From positions 186,001 to 250,000 of the forward strand of contig JBAIAA010000321.1 in assembly GCA_037893245.1 (NCBI GenBank): 64,000 nt of DNA, read 5' to 3'. Of the stretch, positions 13,485-49,716 are shown in pieces. A program made the position numbers and the translations under genes. Each line of letters starts with the position of its first letter. Position 1 is the stretch's first letter. The DNA is from Crossaster papposus (taxonomy: Eukaryota; Echinodermata; Asteroidea; Velatida; Solasteridae). The notes below the pieces were generated by a model that saw only the letters and a program-made list of their open reading frames with translations, had not been told where the DNA came from and ran no database searches.

Positions 13485-13550
13485 TGGCAAAGCGGGATGC
13501 GAATCCCCGGAATACCAGACCGGCGCTCTACAAACTGAGCTATTTTGCCC
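13485..13550 (-). pseudogene. tRNA-like sequence (pseudo-tRNA or SINE head)
   Basis: On the minus strand GGCAAAATAGCTCAGTTTGT begins a tRNA-like fold: D-arm GCTC/GAGC, anticodon-like hairpin CCGG/CCGG, B-box-like GGATTCGCATCC and a 3' TTTGCC that pairs with 5' GGCAAA. The variable loop is missing and the T-stem is weak, so a working tRNA is unlikely. Confidence 0.45.
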
Positions 13551-25372: not shown

Positions 25373-25526
25373 CAGCCCCCCACGAAGACCTTGTTTGCCC
25401 CCAAACAAGACGGTGGGCTCTGCCGCCGCACACCCGGAAGACCCGCACCGGAAAGCGCACAACGCCAACATTTATACAACAATTTACATTACAACAATTT
25501 ACATTACAACAATTTTTGGGGTAAGC

Positions 25527-26019
25527 CCCTGGCCCCGGCACACCCCTGGCCCCGGCACACCCCTGGCCCCGGCACACCCCTGGCCCCGGCACACCCCTGG
25601 CCCCGGCACACCCCTGGCCCCGGCACACCCCTGGCCCCGGCACACCCCTGGCCCCGGCACACCCCTGGCCCCGGCACACCCCTGGCCCCGGCACACCCCT
25701 GGCCCCGGCACACCCCTGGCCCCGGCACACCCCTGGCCCCGGCACACCCCTGGCCCCGGCACACCCCTGGCCCCGGCACACCCCTGGCCCCGGCACACCC
25801 CTGGCCCCGGCACACCCCTGGCCCCGGCACACCCCTGGCCCCGGCACACCCCTGGCCCCGGCACACCCCTGGCCCCGGCACACCCCTGGCCCCGGCACAC
25901 CCCTGGCCCCGGCACACCCCTGGCCCCGGCACACCCCTGGCCCCGGCACACCCCTGGCCCCGGCACACCCCTGGCCCCGGCACACCCCTGGCCCCGGCAC
26001 ACCCCTGGCCCCGGCACAC
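25527..26019. repeat. 17-bp minisatellite, 29 tandem copies
   Basis: The unit CCCTGGCCCCGGCACAC repeats 29 times (493 bp) with almost no variation, indicating recent expansion or homogenisation. Because 17 is not a multiple of three, all frames give a 17-residue protein repeat (for example [17 protein letters not shown] on + and its minus counterparts), so the long open frames here are by-products. The array lies inside the LTR element. Confidence 0.95.
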
Positions 26020-26037
26020 CCCTCTAATGTTAAGACT

Positions 26038-28378: not shown

Positions 28379-29085
28379 ATCGACCTGTGAACCGACCTGT
28401 GGACCGACCTGTGGACCGACCTGTGGACCGACCTGTGGACCGACCTGTGGACCGACCTGTGGACCGACCTGTGGACCGACCTGTGGACCGACCTGTGGAC
28501 CGACCTGTGGACCGACCTGTGGACCGACCTGTGGACCGACCTGTGGACCGACCTGTGGACCGTCGTGTGAACCGACCTGTGAACCGTCGTGTGAACCGTC
28601 GTGTAAATGACTTGTGAATGACTTGTGAATGACTTGTGAACTGACTTGTGAACTGACTTGTAAACTGACTTGTGAACTGACTTGTTAACTGACGTGAACT
28701 GACGTGAACTGACTTGTGAATGACTTGTGAACTGACTTGTGAATGACTTGTGAATGACTTGTGAATGACTTGTGAATGACTTGTAAATGACTTGTAAATT
28801 ACATGTAAATGACTTGTAACAGACTTGTGAATGATTTGTAACTGACTTGTGAACTGACTTGTGAACTGACTTGTGAACTGACTTGTGAATTGACTTGTGA
28901 ATGACTTGTGAACTGACTTGTGAGTGACTTGCGAACTGACTTGTAAATGACTTGTGAACTGACTTGTGAACTGACTTGTGAACTGACTTGTGAATGACTT
29001 GTGAACTGACTTGTGAGTGACTTGTGAACTGACTTGTGAATGACTTGTGAATGACTTGTGAATGACTTGTGAACTGACTTGTGAA
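28379..29085. repeat. 12-bp tandem repeat array 1 (two variants)
   Basis: 28379-28600 is a nearly uniform block of the 12-mer ACCTGTGGACCG (about 15 copies). The rest is a looser array of ACTTGTGAACTG with 11-bp variants (ACTTGTGAATG, ACTTGTAAATG). The two 12-mers differ at three positions, all transitions. The related array 2 is at 36.4-37.6 kb. Open frames here arise from 12-bp periodicity. Confidence 0.9.
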
Positions 29086-29329
29086 TGACTGCGATTTTCA
29101 CACAGGAGTCTGATTTTCCATGGATTTTCTTACGACACCGGTAGCTTCCACTGTCACGTGACGAAAACGGAAAAATGCTGCCTTTTCAAAAAAAGTCCAA
29201 AGATTTCCGAATATGTTTTATTGACGGTCGGTTATCGTTAACGTTCGCAAATTCCGGTTTTAGGTAACGTTAGCAAAATAAAGCCTATCGATCTAGATTC
29301 TCTTTTTTGGTTTGCATAAAATTGAAACT

Positions 29330-30510
29330 TACGAAGCTGTATTAGGGACATGATGAAAATAATTATTTTCTCTCACTTCAGCTAACTCGTACGTACGACT
29401 TATATGTCGTACGTACGACTTATATGTCGTACGTACGACTTATGAAATGTAACTCGTACGTACGAGTTATATGTCGTACGTACGACTTAAATGTCAGACT
29501 TATGTCGTACGTACGACTTAAATGTCAGACTTATGTCGTACGTACGACTTAAATGTAAGACTTATGTCGTACGTACGACTTAAATGTCAGATTTATGTCG
29601 TACGTACGACATAAGTAGGCCTATGTATATGTCGTACGTACGACTTAAATGTCAGACTTATGTCGTACGTACGACTTAAATGTCAGACTTATGTCGTACG
29701 TACGACATACGTAGGCCTACTTATGTCGTACGTACGAGTTAAATGTCAGACCTATGTCGTACGTACGACTTAAATGTCAGACTAGGTATACCAGTACCTA
29801 GTAGCATTGGAGTAGCTCCACGGTCGCCCTACCGAATGAGGTGCGCGCGGCGTAGGCCTACTTATGTCGTACGTACGACATAAGTCTGACATTTAAGTCG
29901 TACGTACGACATAGGTCTGACATTTATGTCGTACGTACGACATAGGTCTGACATTTAAGTCGTAAGAAAGGACATATACGTAGGCCTACTTATGTCGTAC
30001 GTACGACATAAATCTGACATTTAAGTCGTACGTACGACATAAGTCTGACATTTAACTCGTACGTACGACATATAAGTAGGCCTACTTATGTCGTACGTAC
30101 GACATAAGTCTTACATTTAAGTCGTACGTACGACATAAGTCTTACATTTAAGTCGTACGTACGACATAAGTCTGACATTTAAGTCGTACGTACGACATAA
30201 GGCTGATATTTAAGTCGTACGTACGACATATAACTCGTACGTACGAGTTACATTTCATAAGTCGTACGTACGACATATAAGTCGTACGTACGACATATAA
30301 GTCGTACGTACGACATACAAGTCGTACGTACGACATATAAGTCGTACGTACGACATATAAGGCGTACGTACGACATATAAGGCGTACGTACGACATATAA
30401 GGCGTACGTACGACATATAAGGCGTACGTACGACATATAAGGCGTACGTACGAGTTAGCTGAAGTGAGAGAAAATAATTATTTTCACCGTGTCCCTTAGA
30501 CAGCTTCGTA
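29330..30510. mobile_element. Foldback element made of CGTACGTACG palindromes
   Basis: The ends TACGAAGCTGT (left) and ACAGCTTCGTA (right) continue as inverted arms that share AATAATTATTTTCTCTCACT and CAGCTAACTCGTACGTACG. GAAACT directly flanks both sides (29324-29329 and 30511-30516), consistent with a 6-bp target duplication. Both arms are filled with about 18-25-bp units carrying GTCGTACGTACGAC separated by TTATAT, TTAAATGTCAGAC or TAGGCCTAC spacers. A short non-repetitive centre lies near 29785-29850. The 1181 bp should extrude as a giant hairpin. Frames such as 30148-30436 (-) are artefacts. Confidence 0.85.
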
Positions 30511-34124: not shown

Positions 34125-35085
34125 TTGCAAGAAATACTGTTTTTGACATGAAGAAAAACCCAGTCGTTTAGGCCTATTCTAGATCGATAAATAAGTTGCC
34201 ACACTCGACGTTGACGTGCATCACCACGATACGGCCACGACGACAGTGATTGCATGTCAGACTTGTTAGTGTATTATTAATTCGTCATCAACAAAGCTAC
34301 TCAAATGTTAACTAGGTCTATGTATTATTAATATCATCTCAATGAACAAATGCATCATGTTTATTTGCTTACCTTTTCGCTTCTGAAGGATGGGTCCCCT
34401 GTCAGCCGACACCCCACACGTACGATGACAACAAACGTGTAAATCCAAACAAGCCCAGACTTGTCGAAACAATCACATGACGCAATAGACCAATCAAAAT
34501 AGTTTTGCTTGGAGGGGGGGGGGGGGGGGTAGCATAGGATTTGCATGAAGACTGGGGTAAGAGTGTTTCTACATTTGGTTAAGGGTTTTGTTTGGGTTAG
34601 GGTATAATATAGGGTATATTGGGTCGAAATTTCAATCAAAGAAATAAATGTGGTTGAAATAGGAGCATTTTGAAAAACGTGCTCGACTTTCTAACCATTT
34701 TGTACACGAGAACAAAGATATGTCTTTACAAGGATATAAAATTGAGAGAATATGAACAGTGTGCACAGTATACACTGTATTCATAGGATCGTAAACACGT
34801 TTGTCGTAGACGTTCTCGCAGTTGTGCAACTAAAAACAAACACTAAACCCAGTCTCGAGTCAATACTAGGCTGATATCGACAATAGGCCTCCTATTGGAA
34901 GTGAAAGTGTCATTTTGACTGGAGACAAGTGTCACGTTGACCGCGGAAAAGTGTAATTTTGACCCGAAAAAGACTCGTTTTGACCAGGAAAACTGCCATT
35001 TTGACCAAGGGACTCACTTGCCATTTGTTATACGCAATTTTGATTTTAAAATGTCACTTCAAAATGTAAAATATCAGCAACTTAC
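34125..35085. repeat. Long dispersed repeat, copy B (unoccupied LTR site)
   Basis: Collinear with 24100-25090 plus 27273-27640 but without the LTR element. Around 34757-34775 the sequence GTGTGCACAGTATACACTGT corresponds to the place where the LTR element lies in copy A. A G run of about 18 bases at 34513-34530 replaces the G-rich tract of copy A. The right end coincides with the donor of the lectin exon at 35086, so this repeat forms the start of that gene's first intron. Confidence 0.8.
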
Positions 35086-35410
35086 TCGTTGTGTTTATTG
35101 CAGGTATATTTAGCCAAATAAACGATGGTACATCAAATCCTGTTATGTTCTTGAACACGTTGTCGGTGAGCTTCAAAATGGATATGATGTCTTCGGCGTC
35201 TGTTGTTGTTGCAAGGGAGCCCATTCGGCCGTGATATTTGAGACGCTGACAGAACGCCTTTGCTTCCGTGTACGACAAATATTCTGGGTAATACCTGTAG
35301 CACTTGTCTCTGTTTCCTGTCCATTGGAAATTGCACGGCGAACATGCTGCTTGAGCAGAATCAACCAAATCCGCGATAAGCGCGCCCGTCAAAATTAGCC
35401 AAAGCGCCAT
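35086..35410 (-). CDS. First exon: signal peptide plus N-terminal half of a C-type lectin domain
   Basis: The minus-strand frame starts at an ATG at 35410 and ends at a consensus donor (ACGA|GTAAGT), 325 nt, phase 1. Residues 1-21 (MALWLILTGALIADLVDSAQ, then A) are a signal peptide. From residue ~22, CSPCNFQWTGNRDKCYRYYP, SYTEAKAFCQRL, GSLATTTDAEDI and PSFIWLNIPA follow the order W-x-CY - helix-1 FC - G-x-L-A - helix 2 - WL of C-type lectin-like domains. The second half, with the remaining cysteines, must lie in another exon. The only such exon seen (9159-9306, -) enters in the compatible phase, but the LamG and Ig exons lie between them, so linkage is unproven. The product is probably secreted. 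The open frame beyond the donor (about 10 residues) is intronic. Confidence 0.75.
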
Positions 35411-36250
35411 GTTTAGCGCTCGCGCAGTTTTGATTATTACTGAGTGCGCTGGGAGAAGGATTTCGTGTTTATTAAGTTAACAGCGTAGATTGATCCATCA
35501 AACTATGGGCGGCCATTAGTGCAAAACTCTTAATTTTTAAGTCTAAAATCCCATAGCGTACACTAAACTCGGATGTCGTTTGGGGGAAATTCGCCCTCGG
35601 GCCCGTGATGGGGATTTTGGCCAGCCACATAGTCACAATCATGGAGCAGTTGGGACATGAGAGGAATACCCACTTATGAACATGCCGGGGATTGTCAGTA
35701 AAATCTTGCCCCTATAGGGTGGGCATGGTAAGGATTTGGTCGTTTCAAAAGTGACTTTTGTCGCAACTTTTTCCTATACTTCAGCCATCAGAAAACAATA
35801 GTGTCCTAAAAAAAACCGGACTTGTTCAAACCCTATGAAGCAGGTCTGACAAGCGTTGTGTTTTCTCAGTGAATGCTTTATTTTCTAAGCCAAATTTGTT
35901 TGTAAGCTAAGTTATTGCTTTATAATGGCTGATAGGTCAAAGCAGGACAAATTAGTGGTGTCGTTATACAGTCAGTCCGCACTGCGTGCGTTAATGAGGT
36001 CAAATCCCGTGTTTTATCTGCACAGCCCAACGTGCATAATCGACAACGAAATTTGCGCGATAATCTGCGAGAGTTCGAAGACCTTTTTTGATGAATTATA
36101 CGGTCAACTGTAGCATAAATGTCGGAACCTTGACGAAGTACGGACTTATTGGTGGTATTGCGCATGCTTAATTAAGTGATGATCACGATACTATTAGGAA
36201 AGTGAACGGTCACGTGGGAGGGTTTTACCAATAATCATATAGAGAAAATG
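35411..36250. other. No gene recognised; 5' flank of the lectin exon
   Basis: This lies upstream of the minus-strand lectin ATG. I see no TATA box or clear initiator. The plus frame at 35925-36113 has no recognisable domain. Confidence 0.4.
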
Positions 36251-36264
36251 AGTCCGATTTTCCA

Positions 36265-37570
36265 GAGTTGCAATCGAGTCAGTCACACTAAAAGTCACCA
36301 CAAGTCAATCACAAGTCATTCAGTCCTTAGTCAACTTACAATCTATAAACTTTGACAAAAACGTTCCTTTGTTATTGTTCCTCTTCGGAACTGACTTGTC
36401 AGTGAACTGACTTGTGAATGACTCGTGAAATAAATTGAGAATGACTTGTGAATTTAATTGAGATTGACTTGTGAATGACTTGTAAATGACTTGTAAATGA
36501 CTTGTAAATGACTTGTGAACTTACTTGTGAATGACTTGTGAATGGCTTGTGAACTGACTTGTAAATGACTTGTAAATGACTTGTAAATGACTTGTGAACT
36601 TACTTGTGAACTTACTTGTGAAGGACTTGTGAATGGCTTGTGAACTGACTTGTAAATGACTTGTAAATGACTTGTGAATGACTTGTGAACTGACTTGTAA
36701 ATGAATTGTGAACTGACTTGTAAATGACTTGTAAATGACTTGTGAACTGACTTGTGAAATGACTTGTGAACTGACTTGTGAATGACTTGTAAATGACTTG
36801 TGAATGACTTGTGAACTGACTTGTGAATGACTTGTGAATGACTTGTAAATGACTTGTGAATGACTTGTGAACTGACTTGTGAATGACTTGTGATTGACTT
36901 GTAAATGACTTGTGAATGACTTGTAAATGACTTGTAAATGACTTGTAAATGACTTGTAAATGACTTGTAAATGACTTGTGAATGACTTGTGAATGACTTG
37001 TGACCTGACTTGTGAACTGACTTGTGAACTGACTTGTGAACTGACTTGTGAACTGACTTGTGAACTGACTTGTGAACTGACTTGTGAACTGACTTGTGAA
37101 CTGACTTGTGAACTGACTTGTGAACTGACTTGTGAACTGACTTGTGAACTGACTTGTGAACTGACTTGTGAACTGACTTGTGAACTGACTTGTGAACTGA
37201 CTTGTGAACTGACTTGTGAACTGACTTGTGAACTGACTTGTGAACTGACTTGTGAAATGACTTGTGAATGACTTGTAAATGACTTGTGAATGACTTGTGA
37301 ACTGACTTGTGAATGACTTGTGAATGACTTGTAAATGACTTGTAAATGACTTGTAAATGACTTGTAAATGACTTGTAAATGACTTGTGAATGACTTGTGA
37401 CCTGACTTGTGAATGACTTGTGAACTGACTTGTAAATGACTTGTGAACTGACTTGTGAACTGTCTTGTGAACTGACTTGTGAACTGACTTGTGAACTGAC
37501 TTGTGAATGACTTGTGAACTGAGTTGTGAACTGAATTGAGAATGACTTGTGAATGACTCGATTACAACTG
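36265..37570. mobile_element. 12-bp tandem array 2 framed by inverted repeats
   Basis: AGTTGCAATCGAGTCAGTCA at the left is mirrored by TGAATGACTCGATTACAACT at the right. Between them, about 36395-37555 is a tandem array of ACTTGTGAACTG (very uniform at about 37010-37250, some 20 copies) mixed with 11-bp ACTTGTAAATG and ACTTGTGAATG units. The long frames here (for example 36612-37658 on -, repeating FTSQ) exist because a 12-bp unit is stop-free. The inverted ends suggest a foldback-type element whose interior is satellite. Confidence 0.75.
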
Positions 37571-42840: not shown

Positions 42841-42955
42841 GTCAACTTTTAACTCAATTTATCATTTTTCTGTTATTTGCAACTTGCAACAAAACAAGTC
42901 TTCTTTTCTTGCTAAACAGATTGTTTATAGGGATATTTAATACATTGACATTAAT

Positions 42956-44577
42956 AGCTTGAAAAGTGACTTAGTCTCTTCTAGGCTGTGCAAGGACACT
43001 CCTCGAGGTTTTAAGGAGCTTACGAAATGTTACAATACTACACTAGCTAGTACCTTCAACACACTTGCCCCATTAAAGTCTAAGATGGTCACTGCTAGGC
43101 CCCGTCTACCTTGGTTTAATAAAGAAATCAACTTTGACTTAAGGATGAGGAGACATGCAGAAACGAAGTGGCGACGAACTAACATGGCCTCTAATCTTTC
43201 AGAATATAAGCTAATAAGAAATAAGGTAACCTTTCTTCTTAACAAAGCTCGCTGCAATTTCTACAAAGATTTTATCGAAGGTAATAGTTCCTACCAGAAG
43301 AAATTATTTAGAGCATCTGAAAAGCTGCTCGGGCATAGTGATGACGTCATATTTCCACCTTTTAAAGATAAAATGACCCTTGCTAATGATAATGTGTAGC
43401 TTTTTTGTAAAGAAAATATATAATATTCATGCTAAACTTGATGACGTAGAAGTTTCAACCTCTGTAGACAGAACGTTCTCCTTTACATCTGAAACATTGT
43501 CCAGTGGCCTATCTTGTTTGATAGTTTCATACCATTAACGGAGTCACAGGTAAAACAGCTTGTTGTCAATTCTTCTAAGGGATCATGCACTCTGGATCAT
43601 TTGCCTACTAACATTGTGGGTGAGTGCCTTGATGTTTTGCTTCCAGTACTTACCAAAATTATAAACTCATATTTAGTATCTGGCACATTTCCTACTGACT
43701 GGAAAGAAGCTTTAATATGCCCTTTCGATATTAAATTAGAAAACTACCAAACAATCAGTAACTTAAAATTTATTTCTAAATTAACTGAGAGAGCCGTTTG
43801 TGACCAACTTTATTGTCACATGTCAAAACATTCCATGTTTCCGGTTTTCCAATCATCTTACCGGAAGCATCACAGTACAGAGACGGCTCTTATAAAGGTT
43901 ACACATGATTTACTGATGAGGATGAATTCCCAACATGTTATTCTGCTTATCCTTTTAGACCTGAGTGAAGCGTTTGATACTGTTGATCACGTCATTTTAT
44001 TGAAACGTCTGCAGTCTAAATTTGGAGTCACTGGCAAGGCCCTCGATTGGTTTTCGTCTTATTTGTCAGATAGAAGCCAACGCGTATCCATTCAAGGTAC
44101 CTTATCAGAAAAGTTTAATATCAACTGTGGTGTTCCTCAGGGATCCTGCTTAATACCATTTTTATTTACTGTCTATGCCTCTAAATTTGTTTGACATCAT
44201 CGAGTATCATCTGCCTCATGTTCATTGTTATGCCGATGACACTCGGCTGTAACTATCTTTTAGACCTGACAATATATCTTGTCAAGCTGCTGTAAATATA
44301 ATGGAAAATTGCATCAGGGACATCAGGCAATGGGTGTTGCATGACCGGCTTCTAATTAATGATGCTAGAGTGAATTTTTGATCATCGGATCAAAGCAGCA
44401 GTTGAAGAAAATTTATATTTTCAATATCATGATAGGCGATACTAAGGTTTTTCCTCAACATGTGTTCGTAATTTGGGGTCATGGTTTGATTCTGAACTTA
44501 CAATGAATACCCACACCAATAAAGGTTGCTCTGCACCTTTTTTCATCTTAACAACATCAAACGCATAAGTCAATTCC
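42956..44577 (+). pseudogene. LINE reverse transcriptase region (N-terminal/RT part)
   Basis: 42959-43399 encodes the linker before RT, with KSKMVTARPRLPWFNKEI and a basic region. 43514-44194 holds RT motifs: ESQVKQLVVNSSKGSCTLDH, FPTDWKEALICPF, NYQTISNLKFISKLTE, the first catalytic block LLDLSEAFDTVDH and GVPQGSCL. The second catalytic block YADD lies at 44229-44240 in another frame. NLGSWFDSELTMNTHTN and LHLFFHLNNIKRISQF follow near 44470-44577. Two or more frameshifts and stops mean it cannot encode an active protein. The 3' end is interrupted at 44580 by the MITE. Confidence 0.85.
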
Positions 44578-44580
44578 TAA

Positions 44581-45733
44581 TGGCCCTGTCACACCAGAAC
44601 ATTTTAGGCCAACGCGTGAGTAGCGTGTTGTAATTTTGGCAACACGCTGGCAAACGCTGACCAACGCTAGGCCAGCGTTAGCAACACGCTGAGCGGGTTA
44701 CTCACACGCTGGGACACGCTGTCACACGCTGAGGAAAAAATATTTTTTTCAACATACCTACAATTTCCAGCGTTTGCCAGCATGTGACTGCACACGCTGG
44801 CGGCGCGTTGGAGGTTCGTTACTCACGCGTCGAACACGCTAGACGATCGTTATCAACCCGCTACTCACACGCTGGCGTACGCTGGCGTACGCTTGCGGCA
44901 CGCTGGTTATGGCCTTGACACACCAGAACGTTTTAGGCCAATGCATGAGTAGCGCGTTAAATATAGTTGATACGCTGGCAATCGCTGAACTTTCACAGAA
45001 AAAGTCAAGTGGAACCGTGATTTCAGGTTGTCCATACAAGTTGATAACGGGTTCATAGCGTATGCAAGCGCGTGATTAGCGTGTGAGGAACGCGCTCAGC
45101 GTGTGAGGGACGCATCGCTGATTTATAGTAAAAATACGACAGCGGATCACCAGCGTGTGAGTAGTGGGTTGGTAACGATCGTCTAGCGCGTTCGACGCGT
45201 GAGTAACGACCTTCCTGCAAGCCGCCAGCGTGTACAGTCAAACGCTGGCAAACGCTGATTTTTTTTAGGTATGTTGAAAAATGTATTTTTGCCTCAGCGT
45301 GTGACAGCGTGTTCCAGCGTGTGGGTAACGCGCTCAGCGCGTTGCGAACGCTGGCCTAGCGTTGGTCAACGTTTACCCGCGTGTTGCCGAAATTCCAACA
45401 CGTTGGCCTAAAACGTTCTGGTGTGACAGGGCCATTACTGTAGTAGCGCGTCATCTTTTTGTACAACTAAATGTGGTCGTTGCCGTAGGCTGGCGCGCGT
45501 TGGACCGCGCTACTCACGCGCTGGGCAGTCGTTCATCAGTCGTCGAGCGCGTTACTAACGCGTTATTCACGCGCTGGCGAACGCTATGAACCCGTTATCA
45601 ACGCGTTATGGACACGCTGAAATCACGGTTCCACTTGACTTTTTCTGTGGAAGTTCAGCGTTTGCCAGCGTATCAACTATTTTTAACGCGCTACTCACGC
45701 GTTGGCCTAAAACGTTCTGGTGTGACAGGGCCA
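44581..45733 (+). mobile_element. PIF/Harbinger-like MITE (outer copy), TAA target duplication
   Basis: The left end TGGCCCTGTCACACCAGAAC (44581) and the mirror of the right end, TTCTGGTGTGACAGGGCCA (ending 45733), are flanked by TAA at 44578-44580 and 45734-45736. Its two halves differ in subterminal sequence (half A with ACCAACGCTAGGCCAGCGTT, half B with AAAAAGTCAAGTGGAACCGT). With the inner element and one TTA removed it is about 625 bp. TWA duplications are typical of PIF/Harbinger. No transposase is present. The CACGCTGG words make it very CpG-rich. Confidence 0.85.
44910..45434 (-). mobile_element. Same-family MITE inserted in reverse inside the outer copy, TTA duplication
   Basis: TGGCCTTGACACACCAGAAC starts at 44910 and CTGGTGTGACAGGGCCA ends at 45434, flanked by TTA at 44907-44909 and 45435-45437. 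Its left half matches the outer element's right half (B) inverted, and its right half matches the outer left half (A) inverted, so it lies in the opposite orientation. The result is a long imperfect palindrome of over 1.1 kb. Confidence 0.85.
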
Positions 45734-46023
45734 TAACACAAGACTCTCTTGTAACCCTATCAGTACCGAGCGCGCCACCTGGGTTCAAAGTTGCATGGAC
45801 GTTCGCAAAAAAAAGAGCTTGTATGTCCCCCGTTATAATAGTCGTTACGTGACCAGCGTTCTTTGTTGCCACAAGCCGATATTGCTTGCAACTGGAATGT
45901 CAACAGCGCCCTCACTTTTGGCAGCTGTGTGGTTCATTATTGCTATTGGTTTCAAACTGGTTCAAAAAGACGCGCGCGTTCACGCGATCACCAGCAGTTT
46001 GTCCAACGCCACTTAGCTGCCAT

Positions 46024-46154
46024 CATGGCCGAAAACGCTTCCAAGATTTTGGAGGAAATCTTCGCAGATAGAGGTTCAGATATGTCCGATGGTGAATCTT
46101 CTGTAGCAACATCTGACGAAAGTGATGAAGAGGCAAGACAAGCCTTTTCAACTT
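46024..46154 (+). pseudogene. piggyBac transposase N-terminal exon remnant
   Basis: MAENASKILEEIFADRGSDM, then SDGESSVATSDESDEEARQA, is an acidic Ser/Asp-rich leader like those of piggyBac transposases. The frame ends in a TGA immediately before a GTAGAG donor-like site, so the intron may have been spliced just here in the ancestor. An intron of about 850 bp then leads to a TTTCAG acceptor at 47004. Confidence 0.5.
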
Positions 46155-47004
46155 GAGGTAGAGTCGGTAGGTTACTAAAAACACACCGTTCAACTTAGCT
46201 ATTCTCGAAATGTTTCGCATCCGACATTCATAGGCTACTGTAATGTAACCTTTGCTTTTTGATGACCTTTTGCAGGAAAAATCATCAAAAGCACTGAAAG
46301 TTTCAGTTTGCATTGCATAATCCGATGGAATTCAATTAGAAATTGATAAAAATATTGATTTGTTATTGATTTATTGATTTTTTATTGATTGATTGATTTT
46401 AAAGAAAAGAAAAAGTTGTGTTTTTTTTGTTTTTTTAACATGTTTTTTGTTTAGATATTCTTAACTTTCTAAATTTTTATATATTTTTATAATACTAATC
46501 TTTAAAAAAGGGATTTTATTTCATGAGATTTTATTTTATGAGACTTATTTCAGTGGAAACACTAGATACGAGCATCCACAAACGGCATTGTAAGGACAGT
46601 TTGTCATTAAAGGTAATACAACATTTGCGACCACCACCCACCCCCAAAACAAAACAAAAACAAACAAACAAAAAACAACAACAACAAAACTTGAAAAAAA
46701 AATACTTCATTTTATGAATGACCATATTTGACAGTCACGAATGGTCTCGAGCATCCTGTAAAATCCGGGCACCTGGTGTGCTGTTCTGTTTTAACAAAAC
46801 TGATATTGTTTAGCAATTTCAAAAGATGGTTGGCCAAACGTCGTCCCAACTAATACTAAACCCCGGATAAATCCATTTAACCCTCCCCCACCCCCCCCCC
46901 CCCCCCCCCAAAAAAAAAAACTAATGTTGTATACTACCCCTAAAAGAAAATGTGCCGTGAAATGAATAGTGTCCCATTAACCTTTCTGAATGTTCCTATT
47001 TCAG

Positions 47005-48314
47005 GTGTGGATGGAATAAAGCAAGCATCTCTTATAGCAAGAGCCCACCGATGAAATTCAGTGAAGAGACTGGCTGTACGGGAGATTTCAGTCACCTGTC
47101 GCCTTTGCAAATCTTTCAGCTCTTCTTCTGCCAAGCAGTGTGGGAGTTGATGGTGGATGAGACCAATCGCTATGTTGACCAGACAATGTGTGCAGATGTG
47201 GCCTGGAATCCAACTACTGTTCCTGAAATGATGGCATTCGTGGCCTTGCATCTGTGCATGGGTATCAACAAAAGGCCTCGCTACAGCATGCACTGGTCCA
47301 GGTCCGAAGTTCTGCGAAGTCCCCTGTATTCGGCGACCATTCCTCGCAATCGATTCACTCTGATCCTTCGATTTGTCCACCTTGCCAACAACAGAGCTCA
47401 ACCAGGTGATGCTCCCCCTGACAAACTCTCCAAGGTCCGCCCGCTGTTCAACATTGTACTGCCATCCTTTCCTCGCATTTACAAGCCAGGCCGAAATCTC
47501 TCACTTAGGTTCAAACAGTACATGCCACGAAAGTCCGCCAAGTGGGAATTGAAATGTTTTTCATTGAACGAGTCAGAAACCGATTATACATGCTTGGAAG
47601 GTGTTCATCGGCTCTCAGCCCACATCTCAGCAATCTAGTCGACCCTCCGTTGGTTAATGCTTCAACACACCACCCACATAATATCACATCTGCTGGGCAT
47701 GTAGTCATCGACCTAATTACAGGACTCGAACACAAGGGACATTTCATTTTCATGGACAATTGGTATACCAGCCCAGCTCTCATCTGCAAGTTGCCACAGT
47801 TAAAGTTTAGAGCTTGTGGAACTGCACGCTACACCACACTGGGGATTCCAGATTGTGCAAACCCAAAAAAGTAACACATGATAAGAGGTGCTGACCCCCA
47901 GTTTTACACCAAAGCCGGCCAACTGTGCGTCGTTTGGCAGGATGCCAAGCGTGTAACTCTTCTCACAAATGTTGAAAATGCAAAATCGACACGAAAGACA
48001 TTCGAAGCAAAAACAGTTTGAGTGGACTTCGTACGATCAAAAAACCTTATGTCGTTAATGATTATAATAAATACATGGGAGGAAGTGATCTCGCAGCACA
48101 AATGTGTCAGTACTACTCGCACCCTCACAAATCGATGAAATGGTGGAAAAGAGTTTTCGTGGCCATTCTTGACATCTGCTTGGTGAATGGCCAAAAGCGC
48201 AACTGTGTTGTTTGCAGTACCAGAGCCAAGCGGAAACAAACTCGCATGATTTGTAAACAGTGTGACAAACCAATGTGTGTACTACCATGCTTTAAGAAGT
48301 TTCATAGTCTGTAA
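47005..48314 (+). pseudogene. piggyBac transposase, catalytic region and C-terminal zinc finger (inactivated)
   Basis: After the TTTCAG acceptor, WNKASISYSKSPPMKFSEET begins the DDE_Tnp_1_7-type domain: LSPLQIFQLFFCQAVWELMV, MAFVALHLCMGINKRPRY and IPRNRFTLILRFVHLANN. Around 47495-47520 the sequence passes from KPGRNLS straight to FKQYMPRKSAKWELK, so the segment that normally carries the first catalytic Asp is deleted. A frameshift follows. HFIFMDNWYTSPAL (near 47750) keeps the second Asp. A stop and another shift come before VNDYNKYMGGSDLAAQM, which keeps the third. The end, CVVCSTRAKRKQTRMICKQC with CDKPMCVLPC, is the Cys-rich C-terminal zinc finger. It is dead by deletion, two frameshifts and stops. 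Confidence 0.9.
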
Positions 48315-48344
48315 TGAGCATTCACCCGAGCAACTTTTATTGTG

Positions 48345-48472
48345 GTCCCCCCCCCCCCCCAATCCCCCACCCCCCCCCCCCCCCCCCCCACCCCCATTTC
48401 AATGTTGGAGTGATGGTGCACACACCGCCAACCCAACATTGAGTTGGGGGTGGGGGGGGGGGGGGGGGGGGG
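48345..48472. repeat. Poly-C / poly-G hairpin in the piggyBac 3' region
   Basis: A C-rich tract followed by CAATGTTGG is mirrored by CCAACATTGAGTTGGGGGTG and a G run. The two tracts would pair. Homopolymer lengths are unreliable. Confidence 0.75.
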
Positions 48473-48945
48473 TACGTGGCCGCCTTCATTTGAACCTTTA
48501 ACTGCATCTATAGTGTTCCCATTTTGTATGTTTGTGCAATTACCATCTAAGTAAAATCTAAGTAAAATCTAAGTATTTTCAAAGAAAAACTTGAAATTTT
48601 CTCACTAGTGTTTCTGCATCAGATTTACAATTCTTGGTAGTTGTCAAGTCATATTAAGGGCACAAAAGTGGGGGTGAGAGTAGGAATTCTTTCCACCCCT
48701 TCCAAAAAACTTTTCACAGGCCAATATTGTTGTTTTAATTAATCTAATAGTCATTGCTTTTGGGGTACTGTCAATCCATTATGATTCAACACCATCAAAG
48801 AAGAGTGGCCTTTCATTACTTTGCCTTGCGAGGGCGCTATACCCTAAAACTTGGCAAAAAGTGCTTGGTCACTAACTGGTAATATCATGCACATTACTCT
48901 GGTAACCTAAGCATAGTGACAAAATATGCCTTGGTAATGAAAGGG

Positions 48946-49373
48946 TTAAAACTAATTCATGCATTTGTGACCAGTCGTCTTGATTATTGTAATAGCCCTT
49001 TGTATGGTCTGCCAAAGTCACAAATAGCTAAACTGCAAAGGGTTCAAAACGCTGCAGCCAGAATTGTTACTAACACACACCGGTTTGAACACATTACGCC
49101 TATTCTTTTGTTTACCTTCAAAGTTCTTAGTGGTCTTTCTCCAAAGTACTTACAGGATTTTGTTTCCATCCGGAAAGTATTTTCATATCAATATAAGTCA
49201 GGGAATAATGGTACTTTCTTAGATTGTCACTCTGGTATCACTTAGGTGATAGGGCATTTTCTGGGGCAGCCCATAAGCTTTGGAATGCGCTACCGTTTCA
49301 TATACGTAGCGAACAGGAACTTGCCTCTTTTAAATGTAATATACAAACCCATCTTTTTAAAGCCACTTTTTAG
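48946..49373 (+). pseudogene. LINE ORF C-terminus (continuation after the piggyBac insertion)
   Basis: [40 protein letters not shown] and [19 protein letters not shown] in one frame are followed, after a frameshift at about 49245, by GDRAFSGAAHKLWNALPFHI and the stop at 49371-49373. [12 protein letters not shown] and AAPxLWNxLPxxIR-like blocks are hallmarks of the C-terminal part of CR1/L2/jockey-type ORF2. The usual HWLP segment is missing between HITPI and LLFTFK, a small deletion. Confidence 0.9.
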
Positions 49374-49691
49374 TGTGTTTTTTTGTTTGTTCTTTTGTGT
49401 CTTTTGTTTGTCTATGGTCGCCTTGCCAGTTAGTATATATTTTGAGCATAGGGTTAGAGGCGTCTGTCTCCTGAAAATGTCAAGACATTACCGATGCCAG
49501 CAGGGATAGCCTATGTAATAAGTAACTATTAGTTCTCTGTTGGCGGGACAGGCGTGTCCCCCTACTTTTGTTTGGGCACTGGCCTGGTGACCAGTCTTTT
49601 TTCTTTGTCTTTTTCTTCCATTCTGTACTTTTTAACATGTGTTCTGCGCCTTTTATCATTTTGTATGTATAAGGGGCGCAATATAAATGTT

Positions 49692-49716
49692 TAATATTAT
49701 TATTATTATTATTATT
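49692..49716 (+). repeat. ATT-triplet 3' tail of the LINE
   Basis: ATT repeats directly after GGGGCGCAATATAAATGTTT mark the LINE 3' end. Confidence 0.8.

Follow-up and report, generated by a model that had tools for sequence, protein, structure and literature searches.

Unequal flanks of a piggyBac lineage in Crossaster papposus: a left tetranucleotide that may be inherited from the donor site

Background

Target site duplications (TSDs) serve to define the ends of transposable elements and the insertion events themselves. A locus of the echinoderm Crossaster papposus raises the question of what it means when the two flanks of one element are unlike. The locus lies in a stretch of 64,000 nucleotides (assembly GCA_037893245.1, contig JBAIAA010000321.1, positions 186,001 to 250,000), which we call the window. 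Here a long interspersed nuclear element (LINE) is interrupted by a Harbinger-like miniature inverted-repeat transposable element (MITE) and, 14 bases further on, by a defective piggyBac element that is flanked by GTAA on the left and by TTAA on the right. Was GTAA copied from the target, or did it arrive with the element?

We consider it probable that a 5'-truncated LINE of the endonuclease-reverse transcriptase (EN-RT) kind was hit by a MITE at TAA, which was itself later hit at TTA, and by a piggyBac element that inserted at TTAA and carried the GTAA of its lineage. As to the lineage as a whole, we lean towards the view that, over many independent insertions, the tetranucleotide on its left side is handed on from the donor to each new site. 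The one-sided “duplication” would then be an inherited part of the element and a natural record of integration without DNA synthesis, by ligation of a donor overhang.

Results

Empty sites of GTAA-flanked insertions

The genome searched comprises 1.02 Gb in 1841 contigs. A probe consisting of the downstream LINE piece alone returned 30 loci; one was the window itself, and the 29 others were fetched. In 28 of these 29 relatives the gap between the LINE blocks on both sides of the insertions is exactly as predicted, 14 bases and a tetranucleotide, without any rejoining on our part. The divergent relative L017 is also collinear, with slightly different block edges.

These intact copies contain the position at which the piggyBac element sits in the window. 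Among the LINE copies of the genome that have CCTAA before the 14-base fragment (n = 16), 14 read TTAA at this position and two read GTAA; TTAA is read in all five that have, in addition, the CACAAG of the window. The window LINE agrees with the TTAA group at 5/5 diagnostic positions upstream and, with the target base left out, at 5/8 downstream. It nests among TTAA copies in the trees (FastTree, 0.956 and 0.877), and with 40 bases masked on each side of the junction a bootstrap-98 split separates it from the GTAA/TGA group.

The LINE layering supplied one of two empty sites. The other belongs to a second GTAA insertion (L044 = L061 = C302:400641; contigs C302 and C481), for which 7/7 empty paralogues read TTAA; in the four that were fetched, the left flank matches at 133-137 of 149 bases. 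As read from these paralogous copies, the piggyBac target is thus shown to have been TTAA in two insertions although the left flank is now GTAA.

A third insertion, L070, has an empty paralogue in the window itself, at about 500-648, which reads TTAC like the right flank of L070. The left flank of C318 resembles an inverted-repeat element in L021 that is followed by TTAA; its right flank was unmatched, and it was not counted as an empty site.

Flanks of the piggyBac lineage across the genome

Flanks were counted using patterns for the left and right tips of the element. The left-tip pattern required an NTAA flank. The first right-tip pattern forced TTA (TTAH), which hid possible GTAA/GTAA pairs, and therefore right tips with a first flank base other than T were searched as well. 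Rows counted in this way include segmental duplicates and hence are not independent; distinct insertions were obtained by collapsing rows by flank.

The first base of the left flank is G in 53, A in 27, T in 18 and C in 4 of 102 tips. At the right, 103 tips are followed by TTAH (among 100 listed: TTAT 60, TTAA 37, TTAC 3), and 51 tips have a first base other than T (A 48, C 2, G 1). G thus comes first in 53/102 left ends vs 1/154 right ends (Fisher p = 5e-25, which is a guide only, as segmental duplicates are included). A left GTAA occurs in 19 distinct insertions, i.e., the window and 18 others.

Both ends could be read in 19 distinct insertions, and the two tetranucleotides are unequal in 16 of them and identical in three (Table 1). 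When the left flank is GTAA (n = 13), the right one is TTAA in six, TTAT in five, ATAA in two and never GTAA. The pairing of C191b is less sure because its left flank resembles that of C191a. No right end was present in the fetched stretches of L059, L072, L095, L096, L099 and L103, the last of which has a flank in common with L167; L101 lacks its last 16 bases.

Table 1. Left and right flanking tetranucleotides of distinct piggyBac insertions read at both ends
Left/right	Insertions	Loci
GTAA/TTAA	6	window; C302 = L044 = L061; L065; C191a; C318; C349
GTAA/TTAT	5	C11 = C470; C74; C191b; C437; C717
GTAA/ATAA	2	L106/L164; L167
ATAA/TTAT	1	eight duplicated loci
TTAA/ATAA	1	L168/L169
GTTG/TTAC	1	L070
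TTAA/TTAA	1	L060
TTAT/TTAT	1	L057
ATAA/ATAA	1	L170/L171

In a first tree of left ends, five GTAA sequences from four insertions form one clade (support 1.000). A larger tree of 29 sequences has a bootstrap-100 clade of nine sequences without GTAA; the rest comprises 14 GTAA, four TTAA and two ATAA sequences that are not cleanly separated.

Two observations concern the copies rather than their flanks. The ATAA/TTAT insertion was fetched as eight loci with the same flanking DNA (contigs C169, C177, C612, C720 and C1105), which is a segmental duplication. Several left ends occur together in C335 (819048, 824116, 829184 and others) and also in C661 and C1087; those in C335 are on one strand, and the spacing of exactly 5068 bases between three of them would fit a copy caught in a tandem array.

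Layers of the locus

The features are listed in Table 2. The initial annotation described three layers, with a LINE interrupted by a MITE and, a little further on, by a piggyBac element, and took both target duplications to be validated by a LINE reading frame that runs on once the insertions are removed. The reading does run on across both junctions. Frame run-on alone is weak evidence, with about one chance in three per junction, and it is the collinear relatives, as aligned copies, that are the real proof. They show the same order, and a failure to align across the predicted junctions, the outcome that would speak against the layering, was not seen when the comparison was run. Judged by these copies, the LINE is the oldest layer, and it is shown to have been hit twice by DNA transposons 14 bases apart, with order, spacing and boundaries as given here. 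The layering itself is ordinary, and its first description was correct in substance.

Several details had to be changed. A blastn comparison with the relative L158 moves the start of the LINE from 42925 to 42861. The remnant between the two insertions is present as described, but has 14 bases instead of 15. The outer MITE has its tips at 44581 and 45733 with TAA on each side, as first proposed. The LINE, MITE and piggyBac layers all stand, but a second, reversed MITE inside the first had been missed, so there are four insertions. Of the two duplications, the TAA of the MITE holds, whereas the piggyBac flanks are unlike.

Table 2. Features of the interrupted LINE in the window
Feature	Position	Strand	Remarks
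LINE block A	42861-44577	+	5' truncated within endonuclease; RVT_1 in frame 43493-44191; start by blastn against L158
Outer MITE TSD, left copy TAA	44578-44580	+	
Outer Harbinger-like MITE	44581-45733	.	625 bases without the inner copy and one TTA
Inner MITE TSD, left copy TTA	44907-44909	+	
Inner MITE, family of the outer copy, reversed relative to it	44910-45434	-	525-base unit in genome copies
Inner MITE TSD, right copy TTA	45435-45437	+	
Outer MITE TSD, right copy TAA	45734-45736	+	
LINE fragment of 14 bases	45737-45750	+	at this place in 28/29 relatives, at most one difference in those listed
piggyBac left flank GTAA (not TTAA)	45751-45754	+	
piggyBac element, defective	45755-48945	+	Pfam DDE_Tnp_1_7, zf-Tnp_2; piggyBat in PDB; alignment to relatives
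piggyBac transposase piece 1	46970-47635	+	DDE_Tnp_1_7 3.5e-33
piggyBac transposase piece 2, shifted frame	47509-47871	+	DDE_Tnp_1_7 3.1e-08
piggyBac transposase piece 3 with zinc finger	47976-48311	+	DDE_Tnp_1_7 1.7e-12, zf-Tnp_2 8.6e-06
piggyBac right flank TTAA	48946-48949	+	
LINE block B, 3' end with (ATT)n tail	48950-49716	+	collinear relatives

The LINE of the window has a reverse transcriptase (RVT_1, Pfam 1.1e-16), and its relative L158 has Exo_endo_phos and Exo_endo_phos_2. The reverse transcriptase and apurinic/apyrimidinic-type endonuclease expected of an EN-RT LINE are thus found, the window copy being truncated within the endonuclease. In a comparison for a target duplication of the LINE itself, the longest exact word common to its two flanks of 30-40 bases has 5 bases. 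By resemblance, this LINE may be CR1/L2-like; the endonuclease and reverse transcriptase of its relatives appear compatible with many LINE clades. No LINE relatives were found in viral_contigs; in genome_contigs one search gave none and another gave 12 pattern matches with bacterial or archaeal titles. Self-comparison revealed no further copies of the LINE or of piggyBac inside the window, and text searches of the literature with LINE peptides found no paper.

There are four MITE tips, not two, within 44581-45733. The inner copy, when reversed, is identical to the outer one in 463/627 aligned columns, with 104 gap positions that mostly form one internal stretch absent from the inner copy. Among 40 near-full-length rows of this MITE in the genome, 34 (the window included) span 1-525, three span 1-523 and three span 20-525. 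The recurrence of this 525-base unit in the genome shows the inner MITE to be an independent unit, which makes four insertions in the window rather than three. The 3-bp TWA target duplications of PIF/Harbinger MITEs are present at both, as TAA/TAA and TTA/TTA, and no coding capacity was found in the MITEs of the window. Nesting makes the inner MITE the younger of the two; it gives no order between the MITEs and piggyBac.

The piggyBac element of the window is broken by frame shifts, and its DDE_Tnp_1_7 transposase is spread over several frames in three pieces, with piggyBat as its best solved relative in PDB. In the alignment it is 180 bases shorter than several relatives at 48188/48189. It has the short inverted CCCT/CCYT tips of the superfamily (CCCTATCAGTACC and, reversed, CCCTTTCATTACC), and its probable empty site places the insertion at TTAA. 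The identical 4-bp flanks, TTAA on both sides, are missing; such flanks are usual rather than strictly required, because variants are in print (Pokey, PMC3849761).

Other features in the window

Minisatellites are present in several places. One at 25526-26023 has a 17-base unit in 29.3 copies with 100% matches (Tandem Repeats Finder). Long arrays of 11/12-base units at 36402-37558 and 28382-29090, of about 101 and 61 copies, have similar units and are open in several frames, and the palindrome CGTACGTACG is the basis of tandem arrays at 29387-30453, whose units have 20 and 31 bases. An Rfam tRNA match at 13485-13549 on the reverse strand (33.4 bits), possibly a tRNA-derived repeat, overlaps a 348-aa open frame that has, we presume, the look of a LamG-type domain. 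Another open frame on that strand, at 35054-35476, presumably resembles a C-type lectin domain.

Discussion

The readings of the unequal flanks differ in where they place the origin of the left G. An ordinary TTAA duplication followed by a point mutation would need a single substitution in the window copy, and both the LINE and the piggyBac element of the window are decayed. It is nonetheless highly improbable, as 18 other distinct insertions have this G in the same position. A transposase that prefers polar GTAW targets, always with its left end towards G, would account for G being far commoner at left than at right ends, and one TTAC target is indeed seen (L070). However, two GTAA insertions have TTAA at their empty sites, and if GTAA were duplicated in the usual way it should flank the right end as well, where at most 1/154 ends could have it; we regard such a preference as quite improbable. 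Less remote, but still unlikely, is a TSD of only TA or TAA in a longer element (ends ACCC..GGGT or CCC..GGGT), in which GTAA/TTAA would be a perfect short duplication and the G a neighbouring base of the target. This needs no special mechanism, and TA is common to both flanks in 13/13 distinct GTAA pairs. Yet it predicts GTAA at the empty sites, where TTAA was found for two insertions, and an invariant T following GGG on the right, where A occurs in 48/51 of the non-T right ends (for example, in the GTAA/ATAA pairs L106/L164 and L167). It also gives no account of an excess of G on the left only. The empty sites and the variable base on the right were our reasons for putting the short-TSD models aside.

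The TTAA empty sites of two insertions and the recurrent G on the left together mean that the left tetranucleotide was not copied from the target. We infer that it most likely travels with the element as a donor-derived 4-nt overhang. In piggyBac transposition an excised element retains four nucleotides of the donor flank as a 5' overhang; a GTAA overhang could be ligated with a mismatch into the gap of a TTAA target, and the new copy would again have GTAA on its left. The right flank would then display the target itself, be it TTAA, TTAT or ATAA. The G:A mismatch could be resolved either way, which would leave a mixture of GTAA and TTAA in the group, a left TTAA being the target base restored by repair. 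The parts of PMC7351741 that bear on this step report that, on excision, four nucleotides of donor sequence stay on the end of piggyBac as an overhang and that piggyBac with non-TTAA flanks integrates at TTAA with comparable efficiency.

A number of points weigh against inheritance of the left flank. The donor-overhang step is our inference, no insertion having been watched, and for the GTAA/TTAT pairs a TTAT target would require mismatches at two positions. The right-end pattern that forces TTA contributed nine of the 13 distinct GTAA pairs. The larger tree has several very long branches and does not recover the GTAA copies as a monophyletic group; copies with TTAA and ATAA are interspersed. 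As for the empty sites, the raw identity of the window LINE is 0.939 to intact GTAA/TGA copies vs 0.934 to the best TTAA copy, and the bootstrap-98 split leaves L133, a GTAA copy with CCTAA, on the same side as the window. At the base before the tetranucleotide, too, the empty C302 sites are unlike the filled ones (T vs A), and a reversed-pattern control at 3 mismatches gave three chance hits in that search. Finally, the target of L070 was TTAC, which reads GTAA on the other strand, and targets of this type are therefore still conceivable.

The probably inherited flank is the notable part of this locus, and a donor overhang that is passed on gives the best account of the asymmetry seen across the lineage. 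Should inheritance of one flank be possible, a mismatch between flanks would not have to point to recombination or decay, and it would trace donor lineages. If true, this would also provide evolutionary evidence for natural ligation into the target of the donor overhang that piggyBac biochemistry has described. In our literature searches we found no report of systematically unequal left and right piggyBac flanks beyond rare TSD variants. The relevant passages of one survey (PMC10813416) list a few piggyBac types with a GTAA TSD, as rare, and do not mention an asymmetry.

The LINE is like other EN-RT non-long terminal repeat retrotransposons in its endonuclease (seen in the relative), reverse transcriptase (in the window), 5' truncation and simple-repeat 3' tail, and nothing about it is unusual. 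The MITEs share 3-bp TWA duplications, terminal inverted repeats, an apparent lack of coding capacity and a 525-base unit repeated in the genome with PIF/Harbinger (Tourist-like) MITEs, and differ in that the window has one copy inside another, reversed. The piggyBac element agrees with its superfamily (Trichoplusia ni piggyBac, piggyBat, Pokey) in DDE_Tnp_1_7 and the zinc finger, the piggyBat match in PDB, CCCT tips and TTAA targets. TTAT, ATAA and CTAA flanks are also described for Pokey, at about 10% (PMC3849761). What differs is that most left flanks of this lineage read GTAA, with TTAA, TTAT or ATAA on the right, so that the two flanks are not a duplication.

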